The notes beneath the pieces were generated by a model. It searched no databases. It worked only from the letters and a program-made list of their open reading frames with translations, and had not been told where the DNA came from. Shown here one piece after another: positions 37,494 to 43,640 of a DNA stretch of 64,000 nt. Made by a program: the position numbers and the translations under genes. Every line of letters begins with the position of its first letter. Positions within the stretch are counted from its first letter, which is position 1. Source of the DNA: Emcibacter sp. (GTDB lineage Bacteria > Pseudomonadota > Alphaproteobacteria > Sphingomonadales > Emcibacteraceae); assembly GCA_021774785.1 (NCBI GenBank), contig JAJFIQ010000025.1, forward strand, positions 62,001-126,000. Reading direction: 5' to 3'.

Positions 37494-39380
37494 TTAAATT
37501 TGCCGCGATAGAAACTGATCAAACATCATAAGTGTCCAGAGGGGTGAACTATAATCCCTGAAGCCGTTTTGATGATGGTCCAGAAGAGTCCGTAAATAGT
37601 CGGCTTCAAAATAGCCGCAGTCCAACATTCGTTCACTGAGAACAGAGTCACGGATATTTTGTTTTAACACGCCCCGAAACCATTTGCCAAGGGGAACGGC
37701 GAAACCCATCTTGGGACGATAAAGTATATCATTCGGTAGCCGTCCTTCCAGTGATTTCTTGAAGATATACTTGCCTTCACCGCCCTGTAGCTTGAAATGA
37801 GATGGCAGGCTTGCAATCCATTCCACCAATTCATGATCAAGAAGCGGTACACGTACCTCCAGCGAATGAGCCATGGACGCCCGGTCAACCTTGGTTAGGA
37901 TGTCACCGACCAGATAGGTTTTAATATCTATATATTGCAAAATTGAAAGGGGGTCATTGCTGCCGGAATTCTCGCCATATTCTTTGAATAAGGACAGCGT
38001 ATTATACCCCTGCAGGTCATTTTTTAGATTGTTACTGAATAAGTTTTCCCGCATGTCGCCTTTCAGTATGGACATGCCGTGAAAATAACTTTCCACATGA
38101 TCACGGGCCAGCCCCTGAAAAGTTGTTTTTGCTCTGAAAACCCTTGGTGCCCAGTCTGCCTTGGGGTAAGCCTTACCCAAAAAGCCAAATAGAGGCCGCC
38201 GTATGGTGTTTGGGAATAACCCCCGCATCTGTTGTTCAAACATCTGTTGATGGTAACGTCTGTATCCCGCCAGATTTTCATCGCCACCGTCTCCGGATAA
38301 GGCAACGACTACTTTTTCACGGGCCAGCTCGCAAACCCGGTATGTGGGTAGGGCCGAACTATCTGCATAGGGCTCGTCATAGATATCAAGCAGTTCCTTA
38401 ACAAGCGAATAGTCCCCCGGATCTACAATGCGCGACCAATGGTTGGTATTATATTTTCGGGCGACCCGTTTGGCGTAGTCGGTTTCATTATAATTGGGGT
38501 CGGAAAAGCCAATGGAGCAGCTATTTACCGGATCATTGCTAATATCTGCCATGTCGGCGACAACAGCCCCGGAGTCCACACCACCGGACAGGAATGCACC
38601 AAGAGGTACATCCGCTACCATGCGAATTTTTGTGGCTTCACGCACACGTTCCCTAAGTTCGGCACGGGCATCCTCAAAGCTGCCTTGATAATCGCCAGTG
38701 AACTGCAAATTCCAATATTGGTTTTTCTTCAATTGTCCGGTTTGCAGATCAATAGTGATGCTATGGCCCGGTTCCAGCCTAAATACATTTTTATAGATAG
38801 TATTGGGTTCCGCCACATAGCCCAGAGAAAAATAATCCTCCATGCTTTTCGGCCGCAGGTTTTTAACAAAATCGGGGTGGGAGGTCAGTGCTTTTAATTC
38901 GGAACCAAACAGGATAGTTTTTTCTCCCACAGGGGCATAGAACAAGGGCTTGATTCCCAGCCTGTCCCGGGTCATGAAAACCCGCTTGCTGCGGTTGTCA
39001 TAAATGACATAGGCAAACATGCCCCGGAAATGTTTCACACTGTCCTCTCCCCAAGCGTGATAGGCATAGAGGATAACCTCTGTATCGCAACGGGTTTCGA
39101 AATGATAACCTTTTGCTTCCAGCTCGGCGCGGATTTCCACAAAATTATAAATCTCACCATTATAGACGACGGTGACATAACCATCCGTTGATGTCATGGG
39201 TTGCTGGCCGCTTTTTATGTCGATGATTGATAGACGGCGGTGACCAAGTCCGACTCCATCCGCAATATATATTCCTGATTCATCCGGCCCACGGTGGATG
39301 ATGGCATCGGTCATTTTTTTAATTATTGCTTGATCAGGTTTTCTGTCAAGTGAAGTAATTATACCGGCTATGCCACACAT
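37494..39380 (-). CDS. Asparagine-synthase-like glutamine amidotransferase
   Basis: Protein of 628 residues with two complete domains. The N-terminal class II glutaminase starts MCGIAGI, with C2 as nucleophile, and has RLSIIDIKSGQQPM and YNGEIYNF. The synthase domain has the ATP PP-loop LSGGVDSG (about 260-267). The length and pairing with a GT4 gene match the exosortase-A system-associated amidotransferase group better than housekeeping AsnB, so an aminated sugar or polymer may be the product (inference). Plain asparagine synthesis is not excluded. Confidence 0.88.
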   Translation of the reverse strand: MCGIAGIITSLDRKPDQAIIKKMTDAIIHRGPDESGIYIADGVGLGHRRLSIIDIKSGQQPMTSTDGYVTVVYNGEIYNFVEIRAELEAKGYHFETRCDTEVILYAYHAWGEDSVKHFRGMFAYVIYDNRSKRVFMTRDRLGIKPLFYAPVGEKTILFGSELKALTSHPDFVKNLRPKSMEDYFSLGYVAEPNTIYKNVFRLEPGHSITIDLQTGQLKKNQYWNLQFTGDYQGSFEDARAELRERVREATKIRMVADVPLGAFLSGGVDSGAVVADMADISNDPVNSCSIGFSDPNYNETDYAKRVARKYNTNHWSRIVDPGDYSLVKELLDIYDEPYADSSALPTYRVCELAREKVVVALSGDGGDENLAGYRRYHQQMFEQQMRGLFPNTIRRPLFGFLGKAYPKADWAPRVFRAKTTFQGLARDHVESYFHGMSILKGDMRENLFSNNLKNDLQGYNTLSLFKEYGENSGSNDPLSILQYIDIKTYLVGDILTKVDRASMAHSLEVRVPLLDHELVEWIASLPSHFKLQGGEGKYIFKKSLEGRLPNDILYRPKMGFAVPLGKWFRGVLKQNIRDSVLSERMLDCGYFEADYLRTLLDHHQNGFRDYSSPLWTLMMFDQFLSRQI

Positions 39381-39493: not shown

Positions 39494-39523
39494 AAGAAAA
39501 AAGCCCCGGCTAAAAGCCGGGGC
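39494..39523 (-). terminator. Rho-independent terminator of the ABC exporter operon
   Basis: Read leftward, a 9-bp perfect stem (GCCCCGGCT / AGCCGGGGC, 39515-39523 and 39503-39511) with a 3-base loop is followed by a run of T. It lies about 60 bases past the permease stop. Another 113 bases separate it from the amidotransferase start, which leaves room for that operon's promoter. Confidence 0.92.
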
Positions 39524-39584: not shown

Positions 39585-40520
39585 TTACATGCTGTTGCGT
39601 TTTCTGAGCATAACAGTCACGCAAAGCAGTGCGGCCGCTATGCCGAGGCCTACCCAAAAGGCGGGCTGGGTTGCAGACTGAATAATATCCAGTGTTGTTC
39701 TCGGGCTGAAATCGATAAAGTTTTGTGAGAAACCTTTGTTTGATTCCAGAATATGAGCCCCCGTCAGGCGCATTCCGACAAAGCGGACAAGATATTCTGA
39801 ATGGAAGAACAGGCCTTCAAACAGGGCAAGCAAAGCAACCGGTATTGTTGCAACCAATAAAGGTGTCCGTTTTGCGATCACGGAAGACAACATGAGCCAA
39901 GCAAATACCGGCAGTGCCCACAGACTGAACATGATCATATATACGATTTCATTTAATACCAAAGCCGGCAGGTTGGTGGAAGACCACAATAGGTCCCATG
40001 CGCTATATTCTGTTCCAATGGTGTGGAACGAGCCGACTATCAGTAGAAAAATCTGGAATATAAAGCTAAACCCTATGGCAACCATGGGGATAACCACTGT
40101 AACTGTCAGAATTTTTGACAGGATGGTCTGGACATCTGATATGGGCATGGATTTCCAGAACAGAATGCTATTGTCTTTTCTTTCGTCATAAAGTGACCCA
40201 AGGGTGGTAAAGACCATGCAGAACCAGACACCGATCATAATTGGTGCGACAGAGGCCAGCAGCAGATGATTGATATGGTCGCTTAATTCCTGGGCCTCAT
40301 GGGCGGACATGTTGGCAATAACTTCACTAAGGGTAAAGGATTCGCCGTCAATGTGAATGGCTCTACCCAAAACACCCATACTGATAATGATCAGGACCAT
40401 TGACGCAGCGGTAATCACCAGCGGTGTTGTGAAAATGGCGCGGCGGTTTTCCCAATATTCCCTAAGCATCAGGGTTTTAAAGGGGTTATATCCGTTTACT
40501 TTTACGATGGAGGCTAACAT
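39585..40520 (-). CDS. ABC transporter permease
   Basis: Membrane protein of 311 residues with about six helices: one at about 33-53, then five between 100 and 305. The DERKDNSILFWKSMPISDVQTILSK stretch links the second helix to the rest, as in ABC-2 type permeases. It is the last gene of a GntR-ATPase-peptide-permease operon. Such YtrA-type systems usually export or sense peptides or antibiotics. No second permease is present, so it may work as a homodimer. Confidence 0.88.
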   Translation of the reverse strand: MLASIVKVNGYNPFKTLMLREYWENRRAIFTTPLVITAASMVLIIISMGVLGRAIHIDGESFTLSEVIANMSAHEAQELSDHINHLLLASVAPIMIGVWFCMVFTTLGSLYDERKDNSILFWKSMPISDVQTILSKILTVTVVIPMVAIGFSFIFQIFLLIVGSFHTIGTEYSAWDLLWSSTNLPALVLNEIVYMIMFSLWALPVFAWLMLSSVIAKRTPLLVATIPVALLALFEGLFFHSEYLVRFVGMRLTGAHILESNKGFSQNFIDFSPRTTLDIIQSATQPAFWVGLGIAAALLCVTVMLRKRNSM

Positions 40521-40572: not shown

Positions 40573-40740
40573 CTACACCAGCGTGCAAATGCTCAGGGCA
40601 CAGGAGGAGCCGGGTTGGTCAATATCCAATACTGATTTATGCTGTGCAGCATAGGACAGATTGGCAATTCCAGTGATCATAAGGGCGGTTATAAAACCGG
40701 CAATGATCAGGGCTTTAATTCTGGTGTGGTTGGTGGCCAT
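40573..40740 (-). CDS. 55-residue secreted peptide encoded inside the ABC operon
   Basis: A short gene from ATG 40740 to TAG 40573-40575, with GGAG 8 bases upstream inside the end of the ATPase gene. The product is 55 residues. Residues 1-31 look like a signal peptide (KALIIAGFITALMITGIA core, then LSYA). The mature part would be 24 residues with two cysteines four apart near the C-terminus (SSCALSICTLV). It lies 3 bases after the ATPase stop and 52 bases before the permease. Its spacing and signal argue that it is real. It could be the exporter's cargo, a secreted sensor peptide or a remnant. Confidence 0.62.
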   Translation of the reverse strand: MATNHTRIKALIIAGFITALMITGIANLSYAAQHKSVLDIDQPGSSCALSICTLV

Positions 40741-40742
40741 GA

Positions 40743-41594
40743 TTATTCTCCATCCATAAGGGTGACGAACAGGTCAGAAAGGTTGATTCTGTTTACCTCC
40801 CCCAGTTCGGCTAACTCAGCACGCGCTTTGCCGTTAAAGATAAAAGATGTCCTGCCCAGCAGTGTCTGTTCCGAAACCGGTGACAGGGCACGGGCAGCGG
40901 CGACATTTTCCTGTGGTGGGTTCAGCACCATCCATTGTTCACCAATGTCATCCATATCGGCTGTCAGTACAATATTTCCTTCACGGATGAAAACCACTTG
41001 CGAGAGGATATTTTCGATCTCGTCCACCTGATGTGTGGTAATCAGAATTGTGCGGTCTTCATCAAAGAAGTCTTCTAGCAACTGATGATAGAATTTTTTC
41101 CGGTAAATGATGTCGAGACCAAGGGTTGGTTCGTCAAGAACCAGAATTTTCGCATCAATGGCCATGATCAGCGCCAGATGAACCTGAACGATCATGCCTT
41201 TTGAAAGATGGCGGATTTTCTTATCAAACGGCACACTGGTTCCTGCGAGGAAACCTAGGGCCTTTTCCCGATCAAAACTTGGGTGAACACCTTCCACAAA
41301 GTCCAGAGCTTCGCATACTCTCATCCATTTTGGCAGGGTTGCCACGTCTGAGATAAAACAAATTTTCTTCATTAACTCATCACGCTGGACGTAAGGGTCA
41401 AAGCCCAGAACATCTAATTCACCGTCATAGGTTGTTAAGCCCAAAATGCTGTTCAGCAGGGTTGTTTTTCCGGCACCATTAGCACCGATAATGCCTACGA
41501 TCTGGCCCTTTTGGATAGTCAGGTCAACATTTTTCAGAGCCTGAAACGATCCGAAGGATTTGCTGAGATTTTGTGCAGTAATAATATTGGTCAT
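40743..41594 (-). CDS. ABC transporter ATP-binding protein
   Basis: ATPase of 283 residues. Walker A is GANGAGKT (37-44), Walker B is ILVLDEPTLGLD (about 150-161), and the H-loop is TTHQVDE. The signature motif reads LSKGM in place of LSGGQ, a variant found in some ABC-2 type exporters. It begins 12 bases after the GntR stop, so it is in the operon with regulator, 55-residue peptide and permease. Confidence 0.93.
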   Translation of the reverse strand: MTNIITAQNLSKSFGSFQALKNVDLTIQKGQIVGIIGANGAGKTTLLNSILGLTTYDGELDVLGFDPYVQRDELMKKICFISDVATLPKWMRVCEALDFVEGVHPSFDREKALGFLAGTSVPFDKKIRHLSKGMIVQVHLALIMAIDAKILVLDEPTLGLDIIYRKKFYHQLLEDFFDEDRTILITTHQVDEIENILSQVVFIREGNIVLTADMDDIGEQWMVLNPPQENVAAARALSPVSEQTLLGRTSFIFNGKARAELAELGEVNRINLSDLFVTLMDGE

Positions 41595-41606: not shown

Positions 41607-41975
41607 TTAATGGCTACTATTGGTATCAGCAGATTCAATCAACTGCTTGACATTAAGACCCAAGAGCGTAATGCGCTTGATTATTTCAGGCCATTCTTCA
41701 TTGAGGAACTTTTGCTGTTCCGCATTCAAAAGATTTTTTCTCGCCCCTTCAAGTATAAACATTCCAAGCCCTCTTCTCTTTTCTACCAGTCCCTCATCAA
41801 CAAGCTCGGCATAAGCCTTGGAGGCGGTAATGGGATTAATTTGATAATCTGCGGCAACTTTCCGCACAGAGGGAAGAGCTTCCCCCTCGCTTAGGATGTC
41901 ATCAATTATCATGGCCATGATCTGCTCTTTTAGCTGCAGATATATTGGCTGATCATTTTTCCACTGTGTAGCCAC
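41607..41975 (-). CDS. GntR-family regulator, YtrA subfamily
   Basis: Regulator of 122 residues. The winged helix has PIYLQLKEQIMAMIIDDILSEG-like opening, LPSVRKVAADYQINPITASKAYAEL and VDEGLVEKRRGLGMFI. It has only a short C-terminal tail (about 45 residues), which defines the YtrA group that controls neighbouring ABC exporters. It heads the operon. An operator-like inverted repeat overlaps its promoter (42036-42065), which suggests self-repression. Confidence 0.92.
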   Translation of the reverse strand: MATQWKNDQPIYLQLKEQIMAMIIDDILSEGEALPSVRKVAADYQINPITASKAYAELVDEGLVEKRRGLGMFILEGARKNLLNAEQQKFLNEEWPEIIKRITLLGLNVKQLIESADTNSSH

Positions 41976-42035
41976 TGTAAATTCCTATCTTTTTAAGTTG
42001 GCACTATAACTGTTGTGGTGTTTAAGTGTTGTACA

Positions 42036-42065
42036 AACATAGTACACTATATCAATAATAGTCAA
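42036..42065 (-). promoter_or_regulatory. Promoter and overlapping operator of the GntR-ABC operon
   Basis: Read leftward, TTGACT (plus strand 42060-42065) and TATGTT (42036-42041) are 18 bases apart and fit -35 and -10 boxes. The inverted repeat ATAGTGTACTAT (42039-42050) overlaps the -10 side. It resembles the short AT-rich palindromes used by YtrA-type regulators. Position relative to the gene start at 41975 leaves a 60-base leader. Confidence 0.55.
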
Positions 42066-42203
42066 CAACTTTTTTGAACTTTTTCATTAAATGATTTATT
42101 TTCATAGTGTTACGGTATAATTTTTTTGAAATCAGGGTGTTATAAACTGTGTTGTAGAAGGCATGGAATAAGGATATAGTGACCTAAACAACAAGGAAAA
42201 GTG

Positions 42204-43640
42204 ATGCAGATAAAAATCAGGCATGAAATATTGTCATATGCTAGCTTGCTGATTTCAGGGATTGTAATGTCATTATCCATACAGACTTTCGGAACGCAGG
42301 CGGAAGAGATTAAAACTGTCGATCTTATTGTTCATGGACGCTATGTGGTGACCATGGCAGGCGACAATCAAGTGATTGAACATGGGGCTGTTGCGGTCGA
42401 TGATGGTGTTATCGTGGCCGTTGGGCATGGTAGCGAGATAGCGGCAAAATTCTCAGCAGAAAAAGAGATCACGGGCAAGGACCGTATCCTGATGCCGGGC
42501 CTTGTCAATGGTCATACCCATACGGCAATGGTACTGTTCCGGGGTATGGCGGATGATCTGACCTTGATGACATGGCTGCAGAATTATATCTTTCCCATGG
42601 AGGGTAAGTTCGTTGATCCTGAGTTTATAGAGGTTGGCATGAGCCTAGCCTGTCATGAAATGATTAAGGGTGGTACAACCTCATTTGTCGATATGTATTT
42701 TTATGCGGATACGGGGGCAGATGTTATCGAACAATGTGGACTTCGGGCAATTTTGGGGTCGCCATCCATAGATTTTCCAAGTCCGGGTTTTAAAGGCTGG
42801 GACGATTCTTTTGCGGCGGCAGTGAAGTTTGTCAAGAACCGCAAAAGCAAATCGGGACGCGTTATACCGGCCTTTGCCCCCCATGCGCCCTATACTGTAT
42901 CAGCGGATCATATGGCTCAGGTGTCTAAATTGGCCAAAGAATTGGACGCACCCATCACAACGCATCTATCAGAAGACCGTGCGGAGCTGGCATTGGTTCT
43001 GGACCGTTATAATACGACGCCGATCAAACATGTGGAAAGTCTGGGACTGCTAGAGAATAAATTGATTGCGGCTCATGTGGTTCACCCCACAGACGGAGAA
43101 ATAAAAATACTTGCCAAATATAAAGTCGGTGTGATTCATAACCCCACTTCAAATTTGAAAACGGCAGCGGGGATTTCGCCAGTTCCTGAAATGTTGAAAC
43201 AGGGTGTCAGGGTTGGTCTGGGCACTGATGGCGCGGTATCCAATAATGATCTGAATATGTGGGAAGAAATCCGTCTTGCGGCTTTATTGCACAAGGGTGT
43301 CAATTATGATGCTACGGCGATGCCCGCTGAAACCGTCATGTATATGGCGACAAAGGGTGGTGCGGTTGCCGTGGGTCTTGATCATCTTGTGGGTGATATT
43401 GCGGTGGGTAAAAGGGCCGACCTTATTCAGGTCGACCTTTCGGGCCCTCATATGACACCGCTTTATGATGTGATCTCACATCTTGCCTACGCGGCCAGTA
43501 GTAGTGATGTTGTCACCACCATCGTTGATGGCAATATTCTGATGGATAACGGTAAGCTTCTTACCCTTGATGCTGAAATAATCCGGCAAAAAGCCAATGA
43601 AATTGCCGCCCGGATCACGAGAGCATTAAATAAGGAATAG
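42204..43640 (+). CDS. Exported amidohydrolase (MTA/SAH deaminase-like)
   Basis: Metal-dependent deaminase/hydrolase of 478 residues from ATG 42204 (AAGGA 6 bases upstream; a GTG lies just before). The N-terminus carries a hydrophobic segment (about 12-30) ending in FGTQA, so it appears to be secreted. The metal sites are NGHTHTAMV, PHAPYT, THLSED and GTDGAVSNND. Closest pattern is the 5-methylthioadenosine/S-adenosylhomocysteine deaminase and TRZ/ATZ group. It lies beside purine-salvage genes, so deamination of an adenine nucleoside in the periplasm is plausible. The substrate is not proven. Confidence 0.87.
   Translation: MQIKIRHEILSYASLLISGIVMSLSIQTFGTQAEEIKTVDLIVHGRYVVTMAGDNQVIEHGAVAVDDGVIVAVGHGSEIAAKFSAEKEITGKDRILMPGLVNGHTHTAMVLFRGMADDLTLMTWLQNYIFPMEGKFVDPEFIEVGMSLACHEMIKGGTTSFVDMYFYADTGADVIEQCGLRAILGSPSIDFPSPGFKGWDDSFAAAVKFVKNRKSKSGRVIPAFAPHAPYTVSADHMAQVSKLAKELDAPITTHLSEDRAELALVLDRYNTTPIKHVESLGLLENKLIAAHVVHPTDGEIKILAKYKVGVIHNPTSNLKTAAGISPVPEMLKQGVRVGLGTDGAVSNNDLNMWEEIRLAALLHKGVNYDATAMPAETVMYMATKGGAVAVGLDHLVGDIAVGKRADLIQVDLSGPHMTPLYDVISHLAYAASSSDVVTTIVDGNILMDNGKLLTLDAEIIRQKANEIAARITRALNKE

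Follow-up and report, generated by a model that had tools for sequence, protein, structure and literature searches.

A 55-residue protein gene between the ATPase and permease genes of a GntR-ABC operon in Emcibacter

A 64,000-nucleotide stretch of DNA from Emcibacter sp. (the window; GenBank assembly GCA_021774785.1, contig JAJFIQ010000025.1, positions 62,001 to 126,000) carries an operon for a GntR-type regulator and an ATP-binding cassette (ABC) transporter. Between the ATPase and permease genes lies an overlooked open reading frame (ORF) of 55 residues, at window positions 40573-40740 of the minus strand. Is this ORF a gene, and what might its product do beside a transporter? A first-pass annotation, made from the window's sequence, proposed a secreted peptide, for instance an antimicrobial, a signal or the inducer sensed by the system. 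The ORF, here labelled B, is a real protein gene of the GntR-ABC operon.

A protein gene between ATPase and permease

The minus-strand genes run in the order GntR, ABC ATPase, B and permease, and are followed by a terminator-like hairpin. B starts 2 nt past the ATPase stop codon with GGAG seven bases upstream of its ATG, and 52 nt separate its stop codon from the permease ATG (at 40520). Coordinates and length were exact in the first-pass annotation, which had also relied on this ribosome site and spacing. It had named stop codons or frameshifts in relatives as the finding that would count against a gene, and none occurs: an intact B homologue fills the ATPase-permease gap in all 26 ATPase loci of the family (genera g1, g2, g3 and g5).

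The expected synonymous bias is present as well. In an alignment of 13 sequences from the window's own genus, the proportion of nonsynonymous differences (pN) is below that of synonymous differences (pS) in 78 of 78 pairs, and the ratio of the corresponding rates, dN/dS, is 0.11 to 0.63 for the twelve pairs with the lowest pS. Divergence at codon positions 1, 2 and 3 is 0.34, 0.25 and 0.46, and the other two same-strand frames are interrupted by stop codons in all 13 sequences. Because the frame is intact, pN is below pS, third positions diverge in excess and the other frames are closed, B is read as a protein gene. It is extremely improbable that the segment is a mere spacer or regulatory RNA yielding no protein, as might be supposed from its place between closely spaced genes and from sister families whose ATPase and permease genes adjoin without it; against this stand the frame and codon data, a B paralogue elsewhere under an operator of its own, and an Rfam search without a match inside B at E values up to 1 (six matches at E ≤ 1, all under the gathering score, begin at the terminator).

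B is confined to one family. An ATPase search of 99 related genomes gave a match in 67, and 30 loci were read; the four of these from other families have no B in their ATPase-permease gap of 2 to 26 nt. B is likewise absent from 20 further other-family loci examined with a script that seeks ORFs ending in C-X4-C. Four C-X4-C ORFs in three other-family loci (L081, L083 and L088) were rejected, as they bear no resemblance to B. A B profile finds 26 of 396 genomes of the order at E ≤ 1e-15, all from the window's own family, and its best match in any other family has E = 0.003. At E ≤ 1, 170 of the 396 genomes give some match, mostly to short membrane helices. The same profile searched against the class (289 genomes, E ≤ 0.001) returned only the window's own genome and one spurious match, in a 738-residue frame of genome G527. 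Homology outside the family was thus discarded, with no credible match in either the order or the class search. A match at G011:C1:427822 was also set aside as unrelated, since by eye it resembles a Flp-type pilin.

One operator at two loci

The window's own genome holds exactly two copies of a YtrA-type operator, GTGTNNTANNNNNNTANNACAC. The window copy, GTGTTGTACAAACATAGTACAC, precedes GntR; the other, unlinked, precedes the gene for a family-restricted small one-helix protein, here called A, and a B paralogue. Upstream of both GntR and A stands one common element, TAGTGTACTAT...ACAC, behind a TTGAC box. As judged by sequence, the GntR regulon of this genome has two units of transcription: one is the exporter operon that includes B, the other holds A and the B paralogue. 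This two-locus pattern is found repeatedly in the family.

Among 32 genomes of the family, GTGTNNTANNNNNNTANNACAC has 44 exact sites in 26 genomes and at most two in any genome, versus 5 sites for a reversed control pattern. Forty of the 44 stand before the ABC operon or gene A, and two fall at contig ends (G006:C135 and G001:C208). When one mismatch is allowed, the window contains one site as against 0.09 in shuffled sequence, a control that covers the window only. One-mismatch sites, which do not enter the count of 44, precede A in G023 and G027, which have no exact operator, and occur at the second loci of G016 and G023. The remaining two exact sites (L161, G026:C89 position 2464; L162, G030:C5 position 2500, a probable contaminant) lie in one g5 species before genes for a membrane-fusion protein and a resistance-nodulation-division (RND) pump, rather than before A (Pfam HlyD_D23, E 8e-24; ACR_tran, E 1e-82).

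The operator extends beyond the family. In sixteen of 20 sister-family loci (L071-L090) an exact copy precedes GntR by 195-717 nt; L087, L088 and L090 have one-mismatch sites only, and L089 has none. Its presence there implies that the operator predates both B and A, which therefore look like family-specific additions to the regulon of a YtrA-type exporter. The 195-717 nt between operator and GntR in these families leave room for another gene.

Protein A (MNTIFTNxIExNSFMGLV...) contains no cysteine. Its profile finds 25 of 296 genomes of the order at E ≤ 2e-21, all in the family; one other genome is listed, at E = 0.006. F14 and L17 are invariant in the 25 sequences, and the serine and glycine of the SFxGL-type motif vary. 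In genus g5 the operon opens with A, ahead of GntR, at 10 of 11 ABC loci, the exception being G030. The B paralogue lies downstream of A and was found by B-profile search only in G000, G004, G011 and G013; no paralogue was found by it in 9 of 13 own-genus genomes with an unlinked A. It has 76-89 residues counted from an inner ATG, one helix and a C-X4-C-X3 end (C..EACKMV). An ILISKTDPxSFxGL-like N-terminal segment is common to the paralogues and to the ABC-operon B proteins of G016 and G017. With an A-only profile, matches at E 9.6e-4 to 7.6e-3 fall on three of the B paralogues and on the G016 B protein. Because that search also gave three matches at E 0.005-0.008 to places that look unrelated, A and B are only suggested to be kin. 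Two further features of the A locus were seen. The window genome's own A has 128 residues, with a C-terminus about 46 residues longer than in near relatives (82-83 residues), and in three g5 genomes (L158, L159 and L160) a conserved small ORF, MTHFLSSDxNPxGxKLE..., follows an unlinked A that has the operator.

Six genomes of the family lack an ATPase match (G003, G006, G015, G018, G025 and G031), and four of these assemblies are incomplete. In G018 and G025, which are 99-100% complete, there is no match for the ATPase, the exact operator, A or B, apart from one B-profile match at E = 0.35 inside a 661-residue frame of G018. G006 and G015 retain A and exact operators, and the missing ATPase match is probably due to incomplete assemblies (85% and 77%). 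G030 has B in its ABC operon and lacks A. Two of its contigs, C236 and C5, are identical to G026 wherever compared, at all 204 bases of B and at all 1944 bases around the second operator, and for this letter-for-letter match they are treated as probable contamination.

What protein B may do

The window's B has no Pfam or NCBIfam match at E values up to 1, and scans of the family's A and B sequences gave only scattered matches, at E ≥ 0.007 and in just 1-2 of the 26 B or of the 25 A proteins. No named family was found for A (Pfam) or B (Pfam, NCBIfam) in the libraries searched. C47 and C52 are the sole invariant columns among 26 B sequences, which bears out the weight that the first-pass annotation gave to the paired cysteines; both are also retained in the four paralogues. 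Exactly three residues follow C-X4-C before the stop codon in 25 of 26 proteins (that of G016 has eight). Within the genus, identity is 0.67 in the helix, 0.62 in the cysteine-ring region, 0.50 in the linker and 0.34 at the N-terminus, and the lowest pN/pS, 0.33, falls in the ring region.

Counts of helices, charges and cleavage sites cover 30 sequences, the 26 B proteins and four paralogues. All 30 have a 19-residue stretch with mean hydropathy of 1.79-2.81, as for a single membrane helix, judged with one fixed window whose size was our choice. In 29 of the 30 the N-terminal segment ahead of this stretch has a charge of at least 1, and in 25 the tail is neutral or negative, which agrees with a topology that has the N-terminus inside. 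The first cysteine comes 17 to 28 residues after the hydrophobic stretch. An AlphaFold2 model of B has one helix (residues 3-35) and a low-confidence tail, and does not inform the ring.

What is directly established, namely the conservation of B, the selection on it, its operon position, its co-absence and its shared operator, is compatible with the following picture. B would be a small bitopic protein of the inner membrane with its N-terminus inside and its C-terminus in the periplasm. Its helix would adjoin the permease of the exporter encoded on either side of it, and its periplasmic tail would end in a cysteine ring whose spacing from the C-terminus is fixed and which is probably closed by a disulfide. 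B may stabilise or modulate the exporter, or aid substrate handling at its outer face. The YtrA-type GntR would switch the operon, presumably repressing it by covering the promoter, and the operator at the second locus would co-induce A, whose SFxGL-type N-terminal motif recurs in some B homologues.

That B is such a bitopic partner of the exporter, with its ring on the periplasmic side and an accessory or modulating role like that of CcmD or AcrZ, we judge to be probable by a modest measure. CcmD is described as a single-helix small subunit of the CcmABCD transporter (PMC10457321), and AcrZ as a small single-helix protein that acts with AcrB (PMC7267776). B resembles these transporter subunits or modulators in its single helix (30/30) and its linkage to a transporter (26/26); the likeness is one of role, and no sequence relation is claimed. 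We know of no C-X4-C end in either protein.

Several points weigh against this partnership, besides the single window size used for the helix. Sister families have the transporter without B in the 24 loci read, and B is thus not essential to this transporter type. The predicted fold of the permease, a point in favour, calls for caution. Its model resembles a NosDFY membrane chain (Z 11.1, root-mean-square deviation (rmsd) 5.0, 221 aligned), PmtCD (Z 10.8, rmsd 4.5, 219 aligned) and CcmABCD chain B (Z 9.7, rmsd 4.5, 194 aligned), but a Z near 11 can be reached by helical bundles without kinship. The model's mean predicted local distance difference test score is a moderate 70.2, and a Foldseek search with it gave no match at E ≤ 0.001. 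Finally, an SYA signal-peptidase-like site follows the helix in 7 of 13 own-genus B proteins, and an AxA-type site is present in all four paralogues, so that B may be cleaved and set free in some members of the genus, and the paralogues likewise, although this is not a family trait.

These sites lead to an alternative in which B is a prepeptide. Signal peptidase would release into the medium or the periplasm a mature part about 24-27 residues long and closed by a single disulfide ring, as a signal or antimicrobial that is perhaps sensed or cleared by the GntR-ABC system. The signal-like N-terminus and the very short cysteine-bearing tail of fixed C-terminal length suit such a product. So does the nearest named system, PmtR-Pmt of Staphylococcus aureus, in which some modulins exported by the transporter are described as displacing the repressor from DNA (PMC5080381). 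Against it, a strict site (A/V/S/T-x-A) occurs in 14 of 30 proteins versus 9.0 expected by shuffling, and a loose site in 30 of 30 versus 26.8 expected, a count too close to chance to be informative. The ring is under purifying selection instead of being hypervariable, no peptidase or modification gene belongs to the unit conserved with B, and in the homologues of two other genera (G016 and G017) and a paralogue 29-48 residues with the SFxGL-type motif precede the helix, features that fit a membrane-resident partner better. Since an AxA site does not appear to be conserved, a membrane anchor is likelier than free secretion, and we regard the prepeptide as unlikely. The first-pass annotation was correct on gene and cysteines, sound in seeing a signal-like N-terminus and partly right in tying B to a regulated GntR-ABC system, a link that the shared operator strengthens; its signal peptide is less clear, and a free antimicrobial or signal is not supported in the form proposed.

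Alternatively, A and B might serve in sensing or feedback. In A and the long B proteins the SFxGL-type segment, on the cytoplasmic side, would bind the ATPase or GntR, and in the periplasm the ring of B would read redox or envelope state, together setting a repressor without a clear ligand pocket. The invariant F14 and L17 of A, its weak profile matches to B proteins and the presence of both A and B under the GntR operator agree with this, as does the suggestion that the small YtrA C-terminal domain is unable to form a ligand pocket (PMC6746942). The profile matches are no stronger than the three chance-like ones, however, and the motif is missing from the window's own B. The paralogue was not found in most own-genus genomes with an unlinked A (the 9 of 13 above), and an inducer under its own repression requires basal expression. 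We consider this improbable too. More doubtful still is an extended form in which dedicated small membrane proteins govern the repressor with no soluble ligand. B, through its disulfide ring in the periplasm, and A, through its cytoplasmic motif, would then form a membrane relay whose genes lie at two loci with a common operator and which informs GntR of exporter activity and of the envelope or redox state.

Surrounding genes and related systems

The features of the locus are collected in Table 1. The regulator is short, with a winged-helix domain (Pfam GntR, E 5.4e-13, residues 12-74) and a small C-terminal domain, and has a relative in PDB entry 3tqn (residues 4-113, E 5.2e-34).

Table 1. 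Features of the operon, its surroundings and the second locus (window positions unless a contig or locus is given)
Feature	Position	Strand	Properties	Basis
Asparagine-synthase-like gene	37494-39380	minus		NCBIfam
Terminator-like hairpin	39503-39523	minus	past permease	terminator scan
ABC permease	39585-40520	minus	311 aa; predicted fold nearest transmembrane subunits of NosDFY and PmtCD	structure model comparison
Protein B	40573-40740	minus	55 aa, ATG start; short basic N-terminus, hydrophobic stretch at about residues 8-28, C47-X4-C52-X3-stop at C-terminus	conservation, alignment, pN/pS, AlphaFold2
ABC ATPase	40743-41594	minus	283 aa; best NCBIfam model PmtA, far under cut-off	NCBIfam
YtrA-type GntR regulator	41607-41975	minus	122 aa, GTG start	Pfam, NCBIfam, PDB relative
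Operator	42026-42047		palindrome GTGT-N14-ACAC	upstream-DNA comparison, genome search, shuffle test
Promoter-like sequence	42036-42065	minus	TTGACT-18-TATGTT; second hexamer inside operator	consensus scan (10 sites in region vs 6.0 expected)
Divergent TRZ/ATZ-type amidohydrolase	42201-43640	plus	best model below cut-off	
Second operator copy	G000:C11:787815-787836		before A	genome search
Gene A of own genome	L061:5358-5744 (G000:C11)		128 aa	

Neighbouring genes were counted over a flank of about 1.5 kb beyond the ATPase match. Of the 13 own-genus loci L002-L014, 12 have an asparagine-synthase-like gene next to the operon (the contig of L010 ends in the permease), and none of the 13 loci from other genera of the family (L015-L027) has one there. 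The idea of a lasso peptide was rejected, since this gene fails the lasso cyclase cut-off (255.7 vs 525 bits) and reaches 952.1 bits with the model for the XrtA/PEP-CTERM amidotransferase, above its cut-off of 816.9. The operon may therefore border on an exosortase or exopolysaccharide cluster. The first-pass remark that no modification enzyme is present stands for the unit conserved with B, and needs qualifying for this own-genus neighbour. The TRZ/ATZ-type amidohydrolase, which shares its intergenic region with the operator, lies beside the operon in 12 of 13 loci of L002-L014 and in the flank of none of L015-L027, and could be co-regulated with the operon. In 13 of 24 sister-family loci, including Kordiimonas (L028, L029, L030, L031, L071, L072, L073, L074, L077, L079, L081, L082 and L085), the ORF just before GntR encodes 33-52 very arginine-rich residues (roughly KRxxRRxRRxAR); it has a ribosome-site-like sequence and is unlike A or B.

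The PmtR-PmtABCD system, an exporter of phenol-soluble modulins, likewise joins a YtrA-type GntR to an ABC exporter. PmtA is the best NCBIfam model for the window's ATPase and PmtR the second best for its GntR, and the permease model resembles PmtCD. The scores nevertheless fall far below the equivalog cut-offs (134.1 of 350 bits for PmtA; 58.6 of 200 for PmtR). The window operon has one ATPase and one permease, whereas the pmt operon has two of each. To our knowledge pmt has no gene like B.

Published YtrA-type sites include AGTGTA-N13-TACACT and GGTG-N16-CACC, and the window's regulator has at its own promoter a long palindromic operator with GTG/CAC ends. The Bacillus subtilis YtrA regulon is given as ytrGABCDEF and ywoBCD, with YtrG described as of unknown function (PMC12772383). 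With its place upstream of ytrA, ytrG is comparable to the A gene of genus g5 and not to B; the transporter set differs (YtrBCDEF), and the second operon encodes other proteins. YtrASa of Sulfolobus acidocaldarius is reported to repress only two loci, both encoding membrane proteins, through a semi-palindromic site (PMC6746942). The restriction to two membrane-protein loci under such a site would be shared with the present system, but YtrASa is archaeal and its operator has a 14-bp core. We searched the literature for GntR operons in which a small protein is encoded between the ATPase and the permease and found none, and we make no claim that the arrangement is unpublished.

The arrangement adds two small membrane proteins, A and B, to the known YtrA-type ABC regulon. 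In this lineage, position, a shared operator and joint absence tie tiny membrane proteins to a YtrA-type regulator, which bears on what YtrA-type systems sense and on the role of the very small membrane proteins that their operons encode. The A/B system is small and can be tested sharply, as the only invariant residues of B are its two cysteines.
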